Source: Roseicella sp. DB1501 (GTDB lineage Bacteria > Pseudomonadota > Alphaproteobacteria > Acetobacterales > Acetobacteraceae). From it: a stretch of 53,406 bases of DNA. The notes beneath the pieces are model-generated. The model saw only the letters and a list, made by a program, of their open reading frames with translations. It searched no databases and was not told the origin of the DNA. Of the stretch, positions 27,467 through 37,131 are shown one piece after another. The stretch is taken from assembly GCF_013112485.1 (NCBI RefSeq), contig NZ_JABFHG010000022.1:1-53406 (forward strand), written 5' to 3'. Position numbers and translations under genes: made by a program. Every line of letters begins with the position of its first letter. Position 1 is the stretch's first letter.

Positions 27467-28288
27467 TCAGCCCCGCATGCGGCGCGTCAGGCCGGTGAGC
27501 CGCTCCATCACCAGCATCAGCAGGAAGGCCACGAGCACGAGCGTGCCGGAGACGGCGGCCACCCGGACATCGAGCGTGCTTTCCATCATGCCCCACATCC
27601 GGATCGGCAGCATGTCCGTCCGTGCCGAGGAGAGGAAGAGGGAAACCGGCACGTTGTCGACCGAGGCCATGAAGGCGAGGAAGGCGCCGGCCGCGATGCC
27701 CGGCGCGATCAGCGGCAGGGTGACGCGGCGGAAGCCATGGAGCGGGCTGGCGCCGAGGCTGAGCGAGGCATCCAGCAGCGCCGGGTCGAGCTGCGAGAGG
27801 GAGGCGCCGACGGTGCGCAGCACGAAGGGCGCCACCACCACCAGATGCCCGGCGATGATGAGCCCGAGCGAGGGACGGAAGCCGAGCAGGGTGAAGTACA
27901 TCAGCGCCGCCAGGCCGAAGGCGAGGCCGGGCAGCACCAGCGGCGACATCAGGAAGGCATCGGCCGCCCGACCGGCCCGCCCGGCCAGGCGCGACAGGCC
28001 GAGCGCCGCCGCCGTGCCGAGCAGCGTGGCGAGGCCGGCCGAGACGAGCGCCACATGCAGCGTGTTGCCGGCGGCACGATGGATCTGCCGCGACCGGCTG
28101 CCATCCAGCAGCAGCTCGTACCAGCGGATCGAGAAACCCTCCGGCGGGAAGCGGATGGAGCGGCTGTCGGTGAAGGAGGTTGCCAGCACCACCAGCACCG
28201 GCCCGACCAGGATGAGCAGGGCGAGGATCGCCAGCCCGTTCATGACGAGGCTGTAGGACAGCTCGCCCGTGCTGCGCCGCTTAGCCAT
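27467..28288 (-). CDS. ABC importer permease, PotC-type
   Basis: A 273-residue inner-membrane permease with about six helices. The cytoplasmic coupling motif ASPLHGFRRVTLPLIAPGI (EAA-loop equivalent) is in the C-terminal half, and LGASPLHGF is well conserved. The start, at 28288 or 28294, overlaps the end of the first permease gene, and the stop is one base from allA. PotC-type permeases normally serve polyamine or small organic solute uptake. Being sealed into an operon with allA and puuE, this system is more likely to import allantoin, another ureide or a purine derivative. That substrate is inference. Confidence 0.85.
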   Translation of the reverse strand: MAKRRSTGELSYSLVMNGLAILALLILVGPVLVVLATSFTDSRSIRFPPEGFSIRWYELLLDGSRSRQIHRAAGNTLHVALVSAGLATLLGTAAALGLSRLAGRAGRAADAFLMSPLVLPGLAFGLAALMYFTLLGFRPSLGLIIAGHLVVVAPFVLRTVGASLSQLDPALLDASLSLGASPLHGFRRVTLPLIAPGIAAGAFLAFMASVDNVPVSLFLSSARTDMLPIRMWGMMESTLDVRVAAVSGTLVLVAFLLMLVMERLTGLTRRMRG

Positions 28289-29189
28289 GCGCATGCCCCG
28301 CGGCGACGCGGCCGGCATAGGCGATCACCGCGATCACCGCCGAGACCGAGACGAGAAGCGCGATGGCGGCTGTCGCGGCGAAGGGCCAGTTCGCCACCAC
28401 CATGGCCTGCTGCCAGATCATCGCCGGCAGGTAGACCAGCCGCCCGCCGCCGATGACCGACTGGCTGATGAAGGCGGTGGTCGAGGAGGCGAAGACCAGC
28501 AGGCAGCCGGCCGCCAGTCCGGGTGCGGCGAGCGGCAGGGTCACGCGGAACAGCGTCCGCCAGGGCGAGGCGCCGAGTGAGGCGGAGGCGTCGAGCAGCC
28601 GCGGGTCGATCCGGGCCATGACCGAGAGCAGCGGCAGCAACAGCAGCGGCATCTCGATCTGGGTGAGGGCGATCACCAGGCCGAGCTCGGTCTGCAGCAG
28701 CCGCAACGGCTCCGCCGCCAGGCCGAGGCCGAGCACGAGCTGGTTCACCACCCCCTCGCGCCCGAGGATGACGATCCAGGCGAAGGTGCGGACGACGACG
28801 CTGGTCAGCAGCGGCATGACCGCGACGAAGAGCAGCGCGCGCTGCCAGCGTGGCGAAGCGCCGCGGTAGAGCAGGGCGAGCGGGAAGCCGAGCAGGGTGG
28901 TCGCGGCAACCGATTTCAGGCCCAGCAGCAGCGTGTCGGCCACCACCTTCCAGTGGAAGCTGTCGAGGAGGAAGCGCTGCCACTGGTCGAGGCCCCAACG
29001 CGTCATGCGTTCATCGGCATAGAAAGAGACGGCAAAAAGCATCAGCAGCGGCGCGACGAAGAAGCCCGCATAGGCAAGGCCGAGCGGCGCCGCCAGCCCC
29101 CAGGTGGTCAGGCGGCGGGATCGCAAGGGTGCGGCGGCACCCGTGATGGTCCCTGGGGCGGGCGCCGCCGGGGCCGCCGCGCCGCTCAC
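28281..29189 (-). CDS. ABC importer permease, PotB-type
   Basis: Start chosen at the GTG at 29189, which overlaps the solute-binding-protein stop as GTGA. The 302-residue protein starts with an Ala/Pro-rich leader, then about six transmembrane helices beginning WGLAAPLGLAYAGFFVAPLLML. The EAA-type loop LGASPWRTLFRVTLPLAAPGL lies near residue 220, and VVVRTFAWIVILGREGVVN is typical of PotB-like permeases. It pairs with the next permease, whose start overlaps its stop, to form the channel. Confidence 0.86.
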   Translation of the reverse strand: MSGAAAPAAPAPGTITGAAAPLRSRRLTTWGLAAPLGLAYAGFFVAPLLMLFAVSFYADERMTRWGLDQWQRFLLDSFHWKVVADTLLLGLKSVAATTLLGFPLALLYRGASPRWQRALLFVAVMPLLTSVVVRTFAWIVILGREGVVNQLVLGLGLAAEPLRLLQTELGLVIALTQIEMPLLLLPLLSVMARIDPRLLDASASLGASPWRTLFRVTLPLAAPGLAAGCLLVFASSTTAFISQSVIGGGRLVYLPAMIWQQAMVVANWPFAATAAIALLVSVSAVIAVIAYAGRVAAGHAHG

Positions 29190-30220
29190 TTCGCCATCTC
29201 GCGGTTGAAGCGCTCGATCCACTGGCCGCGGAGCGGGTTGATCTTCGCCCAGTCATGCGTGACGAAACCCGACATCTCGTCGAGGCTCTTCATCGGCAGG
29301 TTGGGCGAGAGGGCGATGTCCTTGTTCACCGGCACCAGATTCGCCGGCGGCTTGGTCAGCGCCTGCTGCACCGGCGCGCTCAGCACGGTGTCGATGTACT
29401 TGTAGGCCGCCTCGGCATTCTCGCTGCCCTTGGCGATGTGCAGCGTGGTGAAGAAGGCAACGGCGCCCGTCCTCGGCGTGGCGAATTCGATGTCGACGCC
29501 GCGATCCTTCAGCGCCATCACCGTCTGGGTATTGGTGTACATGACGTCGCACTGGCCCTGCTGGAACAGGCCCGGCATCGCCGCCGGGGTGCCGACGGCG
29601 GCGATCTTCGGCAGCACCTTCTTCAGCTCGGCCAGGGCCGGCTCGACATTGGTTTCGCCGCCGCCGAAGACCTTGGCCAGCTCGATCAGGCTGACCGTGC
29701 CGAAAGTGGTGCCGAAGCCGGTGAGGCCGAGGCGGGAGACCCAGGGCTCCTTCAGCAGGTCGTCCCAGCCGCCGGGCTTCGGCACCTTCTTCGGGTTGTA
29801 GGCGATGCCCACCACCTGCGCGGCGCAGCCCGCGCCCCACTGATCGACGAGCTGCGGCGGCAGCTTCGTCAGGGTGGTGAGCTTCCCGCCGTCGAAGGGT
29901 TCGAACATGCCGCGCTCGATCGCGGTGATGCGCGGGCCCGGATCGAGCACGAAGGCGTCGAAGGGCGGCGCGCCGCGCGAGGCGGCGAATTTGGCGATCT
30001 GATCGACGGCGAAGAGCGCCTGGAACTCGACCTCGACGCCCTTGGTCTTCAGCGCGGCCGGGGCGACGATCTCGCGGAAGCTGTCGTCCCAGATGCCGGG
30101 ATAGGTGGTGGCGACCAGGCTGCCGCCCTTCTGCGCACGCGCGGCGCGGAGCATCGCCGATGGCGCGGCGAGCGCCGCGGCGCCGGCCAGCAGGGCGCGG
30201 CGCGGGAAAGCCAGGGACAT
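29186..30220 (-). CDS. ABC importer solute-binding protein, family 1 (PotD-like)
   Basis: Start ATG at 30220 follows GGAGGA at ideal spacing. The 344-residue precursor carries a Tat-like signal (FPRRALLAGAAALAAPSAML). The mature part shows the PotD/AfuA layout: ATTYPGIWDDSFREIVAPAA, FDAFVLDPGPRI, VVGIAYNPKKVPKPGGWDDLL, GTTFGTVSLIELAKVFGGGE and AMPGLFQQGQCDVMYTNTQ. It should capture the solute in the periplasm for the two permeases. The receptor is the component that sets specificity. Operon context with AllA and PuuE points to a ureide, but polyamines or other solutes remain possible. Confidence 0.87.
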   Translation of the reverse strand: MSLAFPRRALLAGAAALAAPSAMLRAARAQKGGSLVATTYPGIWDDSFREIVAPAALKTKGVEVEFQALFAVDQIAKFAASRGAPPFDAFVLDPGPRITAIERGMFEPFDGGKLTTLTKLPPQLVDQWGAGCAAQVVGIAYNPKKVPKPGGWDDLLKEPWVSRLGLTGFGTTFGTVSLIELAKVFGGGETNVEPALAELKKVLPKIAAVGTPAAMPGLFQQGQCDVMYTNTQTVMALKDRGVDIEFATPRTGAVAFFTTLHIAKGSENAEAAYKYIDTVLSAPVQQALTKPPANLVPVNKDIALSPNLPMKSLDEMSGFVTHDWAKINPLRGQWIERFNREMAK

Positions 30221-30222
30221 GC

Positions 30223-31347
30223 TCAATCCTCCTCGGAGTCGGGGCGTGGGAAGAGGGCGGGCCGGGCGCCGGGAGCGAGGCCGCAGAAGGCCCGCTCCCC
30301 AAGCTCGCGGATCGCACCGAGGCGGGGTTCGGTCAGGCGCAGCGCGGTGCCGTCCGCCAGAAGCGCCTCGCGGATCGCCTGGCCGCCGAGCGGCAGGGCG
30401 AGGCCGAGGGCGACAGGAAAGCGGCCGGGGCCGCCGGCATCGTGCAGGACGAGCTGCTCCGGCCGCACCGTCAGCAGGGCCGGGCCGGGCGGCGCCTCGC
30501 CCGGCAGGTCGAGCGCGGTGCCGTCGGCGAGGCGCAGCGCCACCCGCCCGCCCTCCGACCGTTCGACGGTGCAGGGCAGGCGGTTGGTGGTGCCGATGAA
30601 GCCGGCGACGAAGAGGCTGGCCGGCTGGTCATAGACCTCGACCGGCGTGCCGAGCTGCTCGATCCGGCCGCGGCGCATCACCGCGATCCGGTCGGCGACG
30701 CTCATCGCCTCGTCCTGGTCATGGGTGACGAGGATGGCGGTCAGGCCGAGCTGGCGCTGCAGCCGCTTGATCTCGATCTGCATGTCGAGGCGGAGCGAGC
30801 GGTCGAGCGCGGCGAAGGGCTCGTCGAGCAGCAGGATCGAGGGCTCGATGGCCAGCGCCCGGGCCAGGGCGACGCGCTGCTGCTGGCCGCCGGAAAGCTG
30901 GCCCGGCCGCCGGTCGCGCAGCGGGCCGAGCTGCACCATCTCCAGCAACTCGGCGACGCGCGGGGCGATGCGCGCCCTGGCCTCGCCGCGAGCCCGCAGC
31001 CCGTAGGCAACATTCTCCGCCACCGACATATGCGGGAACAGCGCGTAGTTCTGGAAGACGATGCCGACGCGGCGGCGGTTGGGCGGCAGGTCGTCGATGG
31101 CGCCGCCATCGATCAGCACCTGGCCGGCATCCTGCCGCACGAAGCCGGCGACGGTCCGCAGCAGCGTCGTCTTGCCGCAGCCCGAGGGGCCGAGCAGCGC
31201 CAGCACCTCGCCCGCCCGCACCGATAGATCGACGGCATCGAGAGCGGTGAAGCCCCCGTAGCGCACGCCGAGCCCGAGCACGTCGAGCGTATGGCCGCGC
31301 AGCGAGGCCGCCTGGCCCGGGGCCGGCGAAGAGGGACGAAACAGCAC
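30223..31347 (-). CDS. ABC importer ATPase, PotA-like
   Basis: Start placed at the GTG at 31347, preceded by GGAGA at six-base spacing; that agrees with a start site about 18 bases upstream predicted by the sigma-54 motif. The 374-residue ATPase has Walker A LLGPSGCGKTTLL, Q-loop VFQNYALFPHM, signature LSGGQQQRVALARAL, Walker B ILLLDEPFAALD, the H-loop VTHDQDEAM and a C-terminal TOBE regulatory domain from about residue 255. All motifs are intact. It is the first gene of the six-gene ureide operon and is separated from the solute-binding-protein gene by two bases. Confidence 0.9.
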   Translation of the reverse strand: MLFRPSSPAPGQAASLRGHTLDVLGLGVRYGGFTALDAVDLSVRAGEVLALLGPSGCGKTTLLRTVAGFVRQDAGQVLIDGGAIDDLPPNRRRVGIVFQNYALFPHMSVAENVAYGLRARGEARARIAPRVAELLEMVQLGPLRDRRPGQLSGGQQQRVALARALAIEPSILLLDEPFAALDRSLRLDMQIEIKRLQRQLGLTAILVTHDQDEAMSVADRIAVMRRGRIEQLGTPVEVYDQPASLFVAGFIGTTNRLPCTVERSEGGRVALRLADGTALDLPGEAPPGPALLTVRPEQLVLHDAGGPGRFPVALGLALPLGGQAIREALLADGTALRLTEPRLGAIRELGERAFCGLAPGARPALFPRPDSEED

Positions 31348-31376
31348 AGGCGTCTCCGGTTTGGAATGACGCGAAC

Positions 31377-31391
31377 GCAACCCGCATGCCA
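31377..31391 (-). promoter_or_regulatory. Sigma-54 (-24/-12) promoter of the ureide operon
   Basis: Read on the minus strand: TGGCATGCGGGTTGC, matching the consensus TGGCACG-N4-TTGC at all but one base, with invariant GG and GC correctly spaced. The predicted start near 31365 leaves an 18-base leader containing the GGAGA ribosome site of the GTG at 31347. The motif is not palindromic, so it is not explained as a terminator. Confidence 0.7.
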
Positions 31392-31393
31392 GC

Positions 31394-31430
31394 GCATGGC
31401 CCTGCCTTGACGCGGGACGCGGGGCCATGC
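31394..31430. promoter_or_regulatory. 9-bp inverted repeat in the ureide/urease divergent region
   Basis: GCATGGCCC (31394-31402) and GGGCCATGC (31422-31430) are perfect inverted half-sites 19 bp apart, adjoining the -24 element. It could be an operator or enhancer-binding site for an activator, or chance in GC-rich DNA. It does not match a binding site I know well. Confidence 0.35.
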
Positions 31431-31517
31431 CTGGTCAATCCGGCGGCAGGATGCCCGCGAGGCATGCAGCGGCTGGGGTGGTTCCGTGCCGTTGCGCCCC
31501 ATGCCATGGTCCGGTCG

Positions 31518-32381
31518 ATGCCGCGCGACCTCCCGGCCCTGACCAGCCGCCACCAGCGCGCCGATGGCGCCTTCGACCTGGTCTTCGGCACGGCCTCCCG
31601 CGGTGCCGCGGCGCCGGCGACGGTGTTGCGGCACCTCTACCAGCAGGCGCCGCTGCGCATCCTCTTTCCCCGCCCCGAGCCGGGGGAGCCGCCGACGGCG
31701 GCCTTGCTGAACTGCGCCGGCGGCCTCGCCGGGGGCGATGCGCTGCGCCAGGCGGTGCGGCTCGAAGAGGGCGCCTGCGCGACGCTCTCCACCGCGGCGG
31801 CGGAGAAGGTCTATCGCAGCCTCGGTCCCGAGACGCGCATCGAGAGCCATCTCGCGCTCGGCTCCGCGGCGCGGCTGGAATGGCTGCCGCAGGAGACGAT
31901 CCTCTTCGACGGGGCGCGGCTGGACCGGCGGATGCGCGTCGACCTCGCGCCGGGGGCGGTGCTGCTGGCCACCGAGATGCTGGTCTTCGGCCGCGTCGCC
32001 CGTGGCGAGCGGATGGCGGCGGGAATGCTGCGCGACCGCTGGCGGCTGCACAGGCCGGATGGGGCGCTGCTCTGGGTTGATGGCCTTGTCCTCGAAGACG
32101 GGATGCCGGCGGCCGAGGCCGATCCCTTCGGCTTCGCCGGGGTGGAGGCGCTCGGCACGCTGCTGCTCGCCGGCGGCGCGGCCGAGGCCATGCGGGACCT
32201 GCTGCGCGGCCTGCCCGCCCCGGCGCCGGGCGCCGCCACCCTGCCGCACCCCGGCCTGCTGCTCGCCCGCTGGCTCGGCCCCGCCGCGGCGGTGCGCGCG
32301 GCGCTCGGCGCGGCGATCCCGGCATTGCGCGCGGCGGCGCTCGGCCTGCCGCCCCGCCTGCCGCGGCTCTGGACGACATGA
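31518..32381 (+). CDS. ureD: Urease accessory protein UreD
   Basis: Scaffold for urease activation that binds apo-urease and recruits UreF and UreG. I chose the ATG at 31518 (MPRDLPALTSRHQRADG); one four codons earlier (31506) is possible. The 287-residue protein has the family segments LRILFPRPEP, LLNCAGGLAGGDALRQAV, TAAAEKVYRS, LEWLPQETILFDGARLDRRM and VFGRVARGERM. It opens the urease cluster, divergent from the ureide operon across 170 bp. There is a 42-bp gap before ureA. Confidence 0.93.
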   Translation: MPRDLPALTSRHQRADGAFDLVFGTASRGAAAPATVLRHLYQQAPLRILFPRPEPGEPPTAALLNCAGGLAGGDALRQAVRLEEGACATLSTAAAEKVYRSLGPETRIESHLALGSAARLEWLPQETILFDGARLDRRMRVDLAPGAVLLATEMLVFGRVARGERMAAGMLRDRWRLHRPDGALLWVDGLVLEDGMPAAEADPFGFAGVEALGTLLLAGGAAEAMRDLLRGLPAPAPGAATLPHPGLLLARWLGPAAAVRAALGAAIPALRAAALGLPPRLPRLWTT

Positions 32382-32423
32382 ACGCCGCCACCGCATGATC
32401 CCGCATCCCGCCCGAGGCCCTGC

Positions 32424-32726
32424 ATGAACCTGACGCCCCGCGAGAAGGACAAGCTGCTGATCGCCATGGCCGCGCAGGTGGCGCGCCGGCGGTTGGAACG
32501 CGGCGTGAAGCTCAATCACCCGGAAGCCGTCGCGCTGATCACGGATTTCGTGGTCGAGGGCGCGCGCGACGGCCGCAGCGTCGCCGAGCTGATGCGCGAC
32601 GGCGCGACGGTGATCACCCGCGCGCAGGTCATGGAGGGCATCGCCGAGATGATCCACGAGATCCAGGTGGAAGCGACCTTCCCCGATGGGACGAAGCTCG
32701 TCACCGTGCACGAGCCGATCCGATGA
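32424..32726 (+). CDS. ureA: Urease gamma subunit
   Basis: A 100-residue gamma subunit, typical length, beginning [58 protein letters not shown] and [20 protein letters not shown] are near-invariant family segments. It assembles with UreB and UreC into the (abc)3 enzyme that splits urea into ammonia and carbamate. Its stop overlaps the ureB start by four bases (ATGA), coupling translation. Confidence 0.97.
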
Positions 32727-33027
32727 TCCCCGGCGAGGTGCTGCCCGCGAGCGGCGAGATCGAATTGAATGCCGGCCGCGATTCCATCGAGTTGTCGGTG
32801 GCGAATACCGGCGACCGGCCGGTGCAGGTCGGCAGTCACTACCATTTCGCCGAGACCAACCCGGCGCTGGATTTCGACCGGGCGCAGGCCCGCGGCCGGC
32901 GGCTGGACATCCCGGCCGGCACCGCGGTGCGCTTCGAGCCGGGGCAGAGCCGCAAGGTGCGCCTCGTCGCCCTGGCCGGCGCCCGGCTGGTGCACGGCTT
33001 CCGCGGCGAGACGGAGGGACAGGTCTG

Positions 33028-33028
<1 letters not shown>
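32723..33028 (+). CDS. ureB: Urease beta subunit
   Basis: A 101-residue beta subunit beginning [16 protein letters not shown], with [47 protein letters not shown] and [11 protein letters not shown] as in canonical UreB. It forms the structural collar around the active-site subunit. Its start overlaps ureA and its stop TGA overlaps the ureC ATG (TGATG), so ureABC are tightly coupled. Confidence 0.97.
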
Positions 33029-34740
<1,712 letters not shown>

Positions 34741-34749
34741 GACACCGGC

Positions 34750-35277
34750 ATGACCGAGACCCTGCCCCGCGCCACGCAAATCCTGCCCAAGGGCGGCTGG
34801 GTGGAGCGCACCGCGAGGCATGTCGTCACCCTCGACTTCGACGACCGGTTCCGCCGCCGGCGGCGCTACGTGGCCGAGGGCGGCTTCGCCTTCCTGCTCG
34901 ACCTCGAGGCGGCGGTGGCGCTGCGCGACGGCGACGGGCTGCTGCTGGAGGAGGGCGGGGTGATCCTGGTGCGCGCGGCGCCGGAGCCGCTGGTCGAGGT
35001 GCGGGCCGCGACGCCCGAGCGGCTGATGCGCCTCGCCTGGCATCTCGGCAACCGCCACCTGCCGACCGAGATCGGGACCGACCGGCTGCTGATCCGCGAC
35101 GACCATGTCATCGCCGCCATGCTGCGCGGCCTCGGCGCCGAGCTGCGGCGGGTGGACGCCCCCTTCAACCCGGAGGGCGGCGCCTATGACGAGCACAACC
35201 GCCCGCCGGGGCACCATCACCACGGCGACGGGCACGGCCATTCCCATGACGGCTGCGATGGCCATCACCACGACTGA
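34750..35277 (+). CDS. ureE: Urease nickel metallochaperone UreE
   Basis: A 175-residue dimeric nickel carrier that hands metal to the UreD-UreF-UreG-urease complex. An N-terminal peptide-binding-like domain (about 1-75, DFDDRFRRRRRYVAEGGFAF) is followed by the metal-binding domain with LAWHLGNRHLPTEI and the dimer-interface His in RDDHVIAAMLRGLGAEL. The last 21 residues include ten histidines and one cysteine (HHHHGDGHGH, then HDGCDGHHHD), a nickel-storage tail as in the Klebsiella protein. Its 3' end overlaps the ureF start by about 20 bases. Confidence 0.95.
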   Translation: MTETLPRATQILPKGGWVERTARHVVTLDFDDRFRRRRRYVAEGGFAFLLDLEAAVALRDGDGLLLEEGGVILVRAAPEPLVEVRAATPERLMRLAWHLGNRHLPTEIGTDRLLIRDDHVIAAMLRGLGAELRRVDAPFNPEGGAYDEHNRPPGHHHHGDGHGHSHDGCDGHHHD

Positions 35278-35968
35278 GATCGAGCCGTTGGCGACCGGGG
35301 CGCTGCACCGGCTGCTGGCCTGGCTCTCCCCTGCCTATCCAGTCGGCGCCTACAGCTACAGCCACGGGCTGGAGATGGCGGTGGAGGAGGGGCGGGTGAC
35401 CGACCGCGCCACCCTCATCGCCTATGTCACGACCGTGCTGCGCGCCGGCGCCGGCCGGATCGACGGGGCGCTGCTGGTGGCTGCCTGGCGCGCCGCCGCG
35501 GCGGGGGAGGCGGCGCGGCTCGACGAGCTCACGGCGCTTGCCGCCGCCTGGCGCGGCACGGCCGAGACGGCGCTGGAATCCCTGGCCCAGGGCCAGGCCT
35601 TCGCCGCGGTGACCCAGGCGGCCTGGCCGGAACCGCGCTTCGCCGCCTTCGTCGCCCGGCATCCACGGGCGCTGACGCATGCCCTGGCCTTCGGCGCCGC
35701 CGCCGGCTTCCAGGGGGTGCCGCTGCGGCCGGCCCTGGCGGGTTGGCTCGCTGGTTTCGCCGCCAGCCTGGTCTCGGCCGGGATGCGGCTGGTGCCGCTC
35801 GGCCAGACCGACGGGCAGGTGGCGACGGCCGCGCTGCAGCCGGTGGTGGAGGCGGCGGCCGATGCGGCGCTCGCCGCCGAGCTGGAGACGCTCGGCACCG
35901 CCGCGCCGTTGCTCGATCTCCTCTCGATGCGGCACGAGACGCAATATACGAGGCTGTTCCGATCATGA
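35258..35968 (+). CDS. ureF: Urease accessory protein UreF
   Basis: Start taken at MAITTTEIEPLATGALHRLL (35258); an ATG four codons earlier also overlaps the ureE tail. The 236-residue all-helical protein has LLAWLSPAYPVGAYSYSHGLE at the N-terminus, typical of UreF. GFQGVPLRPALAGWLAGF, RLVPLGQTDGQ and the C-terminal LDLLSMRHETQYTRLFRS are also typical. UreF binds UreD-urease and gates GTP hydrolysis by UreG. Its stop overlaps the start of the ureG remnant as ATGA, the normal ureF-ureG junction. Confidence 0.95.
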   Translation: MAITTTEIEPLATGALHRLLAWLSPAYPVGAYSYSHGLEMAVEEGRVTDRATLIAYVTTVLRAGAGRIDGALLVAAWRAAAAGEAARLDELTALAAAWRGTAETALESLAQGQAFAAVTQAAWPEPRFAAFVARHPRALTHALAFGAAAGFQGVPLRPALAGWLAGFAASLVSAGMRLVPLGQTDGQVATAALQPVVEAAADAALAAELETLGTAAPLLDLLSMRHETQYTRLFRS

Positions 35969-36105
35969 GCGGACCATTCAGGCCGGGGATCGGCAGCCAA
36001 CGGCCGTTCATCGTCACCACTCTCAAGGAGGACAAGGGCATGGCGAGGATTGCGGACATCACCCTGGCGCAGGGCGGCATCGCGGGGCAGGAGCGCGCGG
36101 CATGA
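35965..36105 (+). pseudogene. ureG: ureG remnant: in-frame internal deletion leaving 46 codons
   Basis: UreG is normally a GTPase of about 200 residues essential for nickel insertion into urease. Here the ureF stop overlaps an ATG in the usual way. The peptide begins MSGPFRPGIGS, like a UreG N-terminus up to the P-loop glycines. It then passes directly to QRPFIVTTLKEDKGMARIAD and LAQGGIAG, the UreG C-terminal pattern (RPFxxTxLKxxxGxxxI...QGG). The P-loop GKT, switch regions, CPH metal site and NKxD are absent, so about 150-160 codons are missing without a frame change. It cannot be a working GTPase. Recognition rests on recalled family pattern at both ends plus perfect gene position between ureF and hupE/ureJ. 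Confidence 0.75.
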
Positions 36106-36641
36106 ACCGCCCGCTCAGGTCTCTCGCCGCCGCGGCGCTCATCCTGGCGCCGCTGCCGGCCCTCGCGCATCCAGGGCATATGGAGGGGGCCGGCCTCCTC
36201 GCCGGCCTCCTGCATCCGCTCAGCGGCATGGACCACCTGCTGGCCATGCTGATGGTGGGCCTCTGGGCCGGGCTGCAGGGCGGAAGGGCGCGGCTGGCGC
36301 TGCCGGCCGCCTTCCTCGCCACCATGCTGGCCGGCTTCGGCCTCGGCGCCGCAGGCCTCGCCATGCCCGGAATGGAGACGGGCATCCTCGCCTCGGTCGT
36401 CGTGCTGGTGGCGCTGGCGGTGCTGGCGGTGCCGCTGCCGCTCTGGGCCGCCACCGGGATCGTCGCCCTCGCCGGCCTGCTGCATGGCCAGGCGCATGGC
36501 GTGGAGGGCCTGGCGCAGCCGGGCTTCGTCCTCGGCGTCCTGGCGGTGAGCGCGGGGCTGATGGGCCTGGGCCTGGCCGTCGCCACGGTCCTGCGCCGGA
36601 TCGGCCTCGGCACCGGCCTGCGCCGGGCCCGCGCGGCCTGA
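36102..36641 (+). CDS. HupE/UreJ-family nickel/cobalt permease
   Basis: A 179-residue membrane protein whose ATG overlaps the ureG-remnant stop (ATGA). It has a signal-like first segment ending ALAHPGHMEG, then about six short helices. The family signature HPLSGMDHLLAMLMVGLWAG (His and Asp likely metal ligands) and GLLHGQAHGVEG are present. HupE/UreJ proteins supply nickel for urease or hydrogenase. Position at the end of the urease operon supports the UreJ role. Downstream lies a broken MFS gene. Confidence 0.88.
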   Translation: MNRPLRSLAAAALILAPLPALAHPGHMEGAGLLAGLLHPLSGMDHLLAMLMVGLWAGLQGGRARLALPAAFLATMLAGFGLGAAGLAMPGMETGILASVVVLVALAVLAVPLPLWAATGIVALAGLLHGQAHGVEGLAQPGFVLGVLAVSAGLMGLGLAVATVLRRIGLGTGLRRARAA

Positions 36642-36653
36642 GGCAGGGGCGGC

Positions 36654-37131
36654 GCCCGGTCCGCCGCCGCGCTGCACGACGGGGCGATGTCGACGCTCTA
36701 CCCGGTCTGCGCGGCGCATGCGCATGACCGCATGCCGGCCAACCGCGTGATCGCGGTCAGCGCCAACCTGATCCTGATCAGCGGCATCGACCCGATGCTC
36801 GGGACCAGCGCCATGGGGTGGTTCGGCCTCGACGGGCTGCTCTGGACCATGATCCGCTCACACAGGGGCGCGGATCATGGTCCAAGCCGTCGTTTGATGG
36901 CGTAATTCACGTTTTTCGGTGAGTCCGCCTCAAGCGATCACGCTCTAAGGCATGGCGGCGGTGGCGCTGCCGATCGGCGCGGTCGCGCTGCTGACGAGCC
37001 TGGGCCGCGCCGCGCCTCTTCGCCTCACGCGGCCCATCGCCATTCCTGGCCCCGGACGCTTGCCGCTGGCGCATGACCCGCGGGCGGACGAGGCGCCCCG
37101 ACGGCGGTCGGCGTCATGCCGAGCAATATGA
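36654..37131 (+). pseudogene. MFS transporter remnant split by a palindromic element
   Basis: The left fragment (about 36654-36845) encodes GAMSTLYPVCAAHAHDRMPA, then NRVIAVSANLILISGIDPML and FGLDGLLW. This pattern belongs to the C-terminal half of YcaD-like major-facilitator proteins. The right fragment (36952-37131, in a different frame) reads MAAVALPIGAVALLTSLGRA, then RPIAI and PLAHDPRADEAP, a plausible last helix and tail of the same protein. Between them lies the palindrome at 36844-36950. Everything 5' of the left fragment is missing. I infer a once-complete transporter that was truncated and then interrupted. The family call is from pattern recall. Confidence 0.6.
36844..36950. repeat. 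Palindromic element inside the MFS remnant
   Basis: GGACCATGATCCGC (36844-36857) pairs perfectly with GCGGATCATGGTCC (36870-36883) over 12 nt. An AT-richer tail follows (GTTTTTCGGTGAGTCCGCC) and ends GCGATCACGCTCTAAGG. The stem plus GATCACGCTCT end resembles interspersed palindromic elements of alphaproteobacteria as I recall them. Exact borders are uncertain; GCTCT occurs on both sides. Confidence 0.65.

Follow-up and report, generated by a model that had tools for sequence, protein, structure and literature searches.

A urease operon with a ureG remnant and a foreign ureG on another contig suggest reciprocal loss between two urease systems in Roseicella sp. DB1501

The resident urease operon and its ureG remnant

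The window analysed here (53,406 nucleotides) is a complete contig, C15, of the 6.0-Mb genome of Roseicella sp. DB1501, which is assembled in 47 contigs and is 98.4% complete. A urease operon extends over window positions 31386-36641; its ureD, A, B, C, E, F and hupE each match a Pfam family, in keeping with the initial annotation of this DNA, which had described the operon as intact apart from ureG. The genes are:

31386-32381, plus strand: ureD (PF01774, residues 107-301, E = 3e-51); the start is that of the listed open reading frame, and the true one possibly lies downstream
32424-32726, plus strand: ureA, urease gamma subunit (PF00547; PRK13241 above cut-off)
32723-33028, plus strand: ureB, urease beta subunit (PF00699; PRK13203 above cut-off)
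33028-34740, plus strand: ureC, urease alpha subunit (TIGR01792, 982.8 bits against a cut-off of 680)
34750-35277, plus strand: ureE (PF05194, PF02814)
35258-35968, plus strand: ureF (PF01730)
35965-36105, plus strand: ureG remnant of 46 codons, recognised by alignment to the ureG of the sister genome; it matches no family and drifts
36102-36641, plus strand: hupE/ureJ family gene (PF04955), overlapping the stop codon of the ureG remnant

A profile search of the whole genome found no UreC above the family cut-off other than the one encoded here. Upstream of ureD, on the minus strand (27467-31428), lie what appear from their open reading frames to be the genes of an ABC transporter (two permeases, a binding protein and an ATPase), and on the other side a cyanate lyase gene (PF02560, PF21291; 37262-37708, minus strand) adjoins the operon. 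Between the two, after hupE, an open reading frame at 36687-36905 reads like the terminal part of a transporter and extends into a palindromic repeat; it may be gene debris, since it matches no Pfam family. A tRNA scan detected no tRNA genes in the window.

We compared the operon with those of four other members of the genus (Roseicella/Paracraurococcus; G001-G004), which we take to be Roseicella aerolata, R. frigidaeris, Paracraurococcus sp. LOR1-02 and P. ruber, with the second of these (G002, taken as R. frigidaeris NZ_QLIX01000001.1) as the sister genome. The sister genome carries a ureG of 207 amino acids in the slot that is occupied here by an open reading frame of 46 residues (35965-36105), whose start falls within the final bases of ureF and whose end overlaps the start of hupE. 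Aligned with the sister gene at both of its ends, the short frame keeps the first 10-11 or so and the last 34-35 codons, and 161 codons (483 bp) are gone in frame. The P-loop, switch II and CPH motifs all fall inside the missing 161 codons and are absent from the remnant. Hence the earlier reading of this frame as a 46-codon, in-frame remnant of ureG is borne out by the alignment to a relative that had been proposed as its check, and the deletion, put at about 150-160 codons, measures 161. Because the 46 residues match no Pfam or NCBIfam family at an E value of 1, TIGR00101 included, the identification comes from position and DNA alignment rather than from a profile. Such a slot is unusual: among the best 80 of 350 confirmed ureF-bearing loci, a complete and uninterrupted ureG directly follows ureF in 78, the two exceptions being a contig end (L081) and a gene with a stop only near its C-terminal end (L110). 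Around the deletion junction (35900-36160) only short, weak repeats were seen, and a clear deletion mechanism was not found there.

To describe how the remnant has evolved, we counted changes in its alignable codons. Against R. frigidaeris there are 1 synonymous and 14 non-synonymous changes in 44 codons. Polarisation by the three other genus members is possible for 39 codons and leaves small counts, with 11 changes on the remnant's own branch, none of them synonymous, and 1 on the sister branch; counted by residue, the numbers are 9 and 1 (p = 0.02). The seven other operon genes carry 52 non-synonymous and 62 synonymous changes on the same branch (1584 codons), as against 11 and 0 in the remnant (Fisher p = 0.0006, with synonymy scored per whole codon and therefore slightly rough). 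The complete lack of synonymous changes among the 11 lies at the edge of chance under neutral drift (p = 0.04). These results indicate that the remnant drifts as sequence free of the constraint on UreG, and the accumulation of 11 changes on its own branch implies that the loss of ureG is not recent on this branch.

The same substitutions bear on whether a normal ureG in fact stands at this place, removed from view by assembly collapse or sequencing error. There is a precedent, in that a published assembly is reported to have lacked a ureG that was present in the reads and in other assemblies (PMC6999849). Here, the junction is far from either end of a 53-kb contig, a ureG of the resident type is found nowhere else in the genome, and the 11 substitutions of the remnant are absent from all four genus members compared and would not be created by the collapse of an intact gene; an artefact is therefore hardly credible. 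Nor do the substitutions favour the suggestion that the 46-residue peptide has been put to another use, such as that of a small partner of UreF, or that its frame is kept to couple the translation of ureF and hupE. The frame is uninterrupted and shares bases with the gene on either side, but the chance that it would stay open after 11 random changes is 0.81, and all 11 changes on its own branch, like 14 of the 15 differences to the sister, alter the protein. Another use for the peptide, which the initial annotation had allowed, finds no support because the peptide drifts like unconstrained sequence, and we regard retention for a job of its own or for coupling as very unlikely.

For the genes that remain, the values of dN/dS to the sister are 0.094 for UreC, 0.050 for UreA, 0.245 for UreF, 0.410 for UreD and 0.366 for UreE. 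Across the 1584 codons of the seven genes, 35 private amino-acid changes are counted here and 36 in the sister, with the HupE comparison made without P. ruber, which gave no match. The resident operon thus appears to be under purifying selection, with no relaxation in the rest of the operon after the loss of ureG. Since that loss is not recent and the other operon genes are not accelerated, the urease has stayed under selection, and the earlier suggestion that it is inactive becomes the less likely one.

A foreign ureG amid the debris of a second urease cluster

Searched with the UreG profile, the genome gives one match, on another contig than the operon (G000:C1:305341-305988). The encoded protein, 216 residues long, reaches 315.8 bits with TIGR00101 (cut-off 204.2) and carries the P-loop GPVGSGKT, the CPH metal site, the ESGGDN switch II and the NKxD motif, which PMC3792862 describes. 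It can be aligned with the UreG structures 5xkt and 4hi0, and none of the 120 columns invariant among eight other UreGs is altered in it. A genome search for another ureG or hypB had been proposed at the outset, and it returned this single ureG and no HypB. The result for HypB comes from the PF02492 (CobW/HypB/UreG) and UreG profiles: PF02492 matched only the C1 UreG and three longer proteins, which we take, from a motif, to be CobW-like, and the UreG profile, which also matches in E. coli (presumably via HypB), matched once in the source genome. HypB as a substitute for UreG, another of the options first put forward, was rejected on these searches.

The C1 UreG is only 66-67% identical to the UreGs of the four genus members, and it is 92% and 89% identical to those of G236 and G020, two members of the family that are the only others among 397 family genomes to match it at an E value of 1e-95. 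Its identity to plasmid copies from Shinella and Pandoraea is 84%. We placed it in a quick tree of 71 UreGs, drawn from 44 of the 80 ureF-bearing loci, 15 of 30 family loci, 7 class loci and 5 sequences of the foreign type. The five foreign-type UreGs fall on one side of a branch with an SH-aLRT support of only 80, which rises to 96 for an enclosing set of seven, and they stand apart (97) from a set of 51 that are mostly labelled Acetobacteraceae, Roseomonadaceae or the same family. By these comparisons the C1 UreG appears to be of a foreign lineage, with a discordant phylogeny.

The gene cluster to which this lineage belongs is intact in G236, where a yut-like gene, ureC, ureB, ureA and ureD lie on one strand and ureE, ureG and ureF on the other. 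Within 19.5 kb around the foreign ureG, 7 of these 8 genes are broken or undetected. What remains, by comparison with the G236 cluster, is 88 nt of ureC beside 74 nt of ureD, and a piece of ureF from whose interior about 295 bp have been lost; ureE was undetected at the locus, with a score at the level of shuffled sequence. The spacer is also recognisable: it is similar to the one between ureD and ureE in G236 (171 of 315 aligned columns identical; score 78, against a maximum of 42 in 300 shuffles) and shows no resemblance to the spacer of G020 (score 32, shuffle maximum 45). The GC content of the second-cluster stretch is 63.6%, compared with 71% in its 19.5-kb surroundings and 72% in the window. 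The debris became visible only through comparison with a donor-type cluster; when the resident urease proteins were searched against the locus with tblastn, ureG alone stood out among the matches listed. Synteny with R. frigidaeris is kept downstream (a gene about 90% identical), with the boundary some 200 bases past the ureF debris, and a clean empty site for the second cluster was not found in the sister genome. Given the debris of ureC, ureD and ureF, the spacer, the low GC content and the foreign lineage, the C1 ureG appears to be the sole gene left intact from a urease cluster that was acquired horizontally and has otherwise decayed. G236 and G020 each have one UreG match and one UreC above the cut-off, the divergent cluster being their only urease, and this type of cluster may therefore have fully supplanted the resident operon in other members of the family.

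Both loci also contain a palindromic repeat, GGACCATGATCCGC...GCGGATCATGGTCC followed by a tail, with one copy a few bases from the ureC debris on C1 (L005:8758-8792) and another downstream of hupE (window positions 36842-36950, approximately). With up to one mismatch allowed in the 20-base core, the genome contains 82 matches to it (42 on one strand, 40 on the other), against 6 in R. frigidaeris and none in three other genus members, which suggests an expanded element of the REP or MITE type.

The foreign ureG is not only complete but appears to be constrained. It differs from the G236 gene by 65 synonymous and 23 non-synonymous changes (dN/dS 0.087), and its dN/dS to G020 is 0.144. Polarised by G020, its branch carries 10 non-synonymous and 20 synonymous changes and that of G236 carries 11 and 35 (p = 0.44). 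Its non-synonymous rate (10 changes in 484 sites) is below that of the remnant (11 in 117; p = 0.0006), with the reservation that the two branches may span unequal times, and the contrast weakens to p = 0.07 when every one of the 23 non-synonymous differences from G236 is assigned to the foreign ureG. The pattern is that of an intact gene under purifying selection. A promoter scan of the surroundings of the gene (L005:8850-10500) found no sigma-70-like promoters, which counts against a role for it in trans.

The debris itself looks partly young: the ureF piece has a dN/dS of 0.36 in a gapped codon comparison, and there are 4 non-synonymous and 9 synonymous changes in the ureD piece and 10 and 5 in the ureC piece. 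The decay of the second cluster may therefore be recent, in which case the constraint on the foreign ureG may partly predate it and stem from the time of the whole cluster. This would agree with a purely passive survival, in which activation of the resident urease has ceased and the foreign ureG is simply the last gene of the second cluster that has yet to decay, as the ruin of 7 of its 8 genes might also suggest. Lower urease activity through a ureG mutation is, moreover, reported to have favoured growth of Synechocystis on urea (PMC5991728). However, the foreign ureG is intact and constrained, and the resident genes show no increase in rate and a dN/dS of only 0.094 for UreC, although their own ureG was lost some time ago; we consider passive survival unlikely.

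Reciprocal loss and UreG acting in trans

We propose that the two loci are probably the outcome of a reciprocal loss between two urease systems, and that the foreign UreG now matures the resident urease in trans. The genome would once have held both the resident ureDABCEFG-hupE operon and an acquired divergent cluster, with yut-ureCBAD on one strand and ureEGF on the other as in G236. The resident operon then would have lost the core of its ureG, and the acquired cluster everything except its ureG, leaving one complete set spread over two loci: resident UreABC, UreD, UreE and UreF together with a foreign UreG. Loss of the resident ureG probably came first, at a time when UreG was still supplied by the second cluster, whose other genes would have decayed later. 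The foreign UreG would dock on the resident UreF and UreD and deliver nickel with hydrolysis of GTP, as studied UreGs do, while the remnant peptide is probably inert, its open frame at most keeping translation running from ureF into hupE. The main support for such service in trans is that the resident operon stayed constrained after the loss of its own ureG. Among the options first raised for this locus, we thus favour that of a second ureG as the substitute, on the strength of the single UreG match on C1 and the purifying selection on the operon.

In Helicobacter pylori, UreF and UreH are reported to recruit UreG, CPH motifs bind nickel at the face of the dimer, and GTP hydrolysis by UreG releases the nickel to urease (PMC3792862). 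Deletion of ureG is described as abolishing urease in Aspergillus fumigatus (PMC10100864). In a ureG point mutant of Synechocystis, a plasmid-borne ureG lifted urease activity about 3-fold, and UreG can therefore act in trans (PMC5991728).

A further step would be to see in these proteins a natural chimeric machine for nickel insertion, in which the resident UreD, UreE and UreF work with a foreign UreG that is about two-thirds identical to the UreG of the genus and was kept after reciprocal loss. We lean towards this reading with some caution. The foreign ureG now lies directly behind the old divergent spacer, its own ureE gone. Private changes that equal the donor residue number 0 of 6 in UreF, 2 of 14 in UreD and 0 of 5 in UreE, which is not meaningful. 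If the reading is true, it would mark UreG as the component of the urease activation complex that can be swapped. The accessory proteins on which urease maturation depends form a tightly knit complex and are as a rule encoded side by side; since the GTPase here seems to have given way to a distant homologue while UreF, UreD and UreE were retained, the specificity of their contacts with UreG becomes testable. The two loci also carry a warning for annotation: the absence of an essential gene from an operon does not prove that the pathway is dead, nor does an accessory gene found alone have to be debris.

Comparison with known systems

As a protein, the C1 UreG shares all the motifs of its family (TIGR00101; PDB 4hi0, 5xkt) and is a full member. 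It differs from the usual UreG in being encoded away from its presumed target urease and in belonging to another lineage, with the local ureG reduced to a remnant. Soybean UreG reportedly complements, in part, a ureG mutant of Klebsiella. The remains on C1 have the same orientation as the clusters on plasmid p1 of Shinella zoogloeoides and plasmid pPO70-1 of Pandoraea oxalativorans, in which ureC, B, A and D lie on one strand and ureG on the other. In these plasmid clusters ureCBAD and ureG are intact, with ureE and ureF elsewhere or not listed, whereas on C1 only ureG is intact, and the closest full layout to the C1 remains is that of the G236 cluster.

The replacement of a resident gene by a foreign homologue is termed xenologous gene displacement. 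The present case probably shares with it the takeover of a resident gene's function by a foreign homologue located elsewhere: the resident ureG is inactivated, and the foreign homologue has a discordant phylogeny and the signature of purifying selection. It differs in that both scars are still visible, and in that the exchange would have taken place within a multi-protein maturation complex. A natural split urease of such a kind was not found in the open-licence literature searched.

The genomes of Brucella likewise contain two urease operons of different lineages (ure1 and ure2), with ureG genes that are 54% alike, and deletion of ureD and ureA of ure1 is reported to have abolished urease (PMC1983905). 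Two sets in one cell thus need not be interchangeable, as far as the deletion of ureD and ureA can tell, and this speaks against the proposal. By the same account both operons of Brucella are full and only ure1 is active (PMC1983905), whereas in Roseicella sp. DB1501 the two sets would have been whittled down to one.
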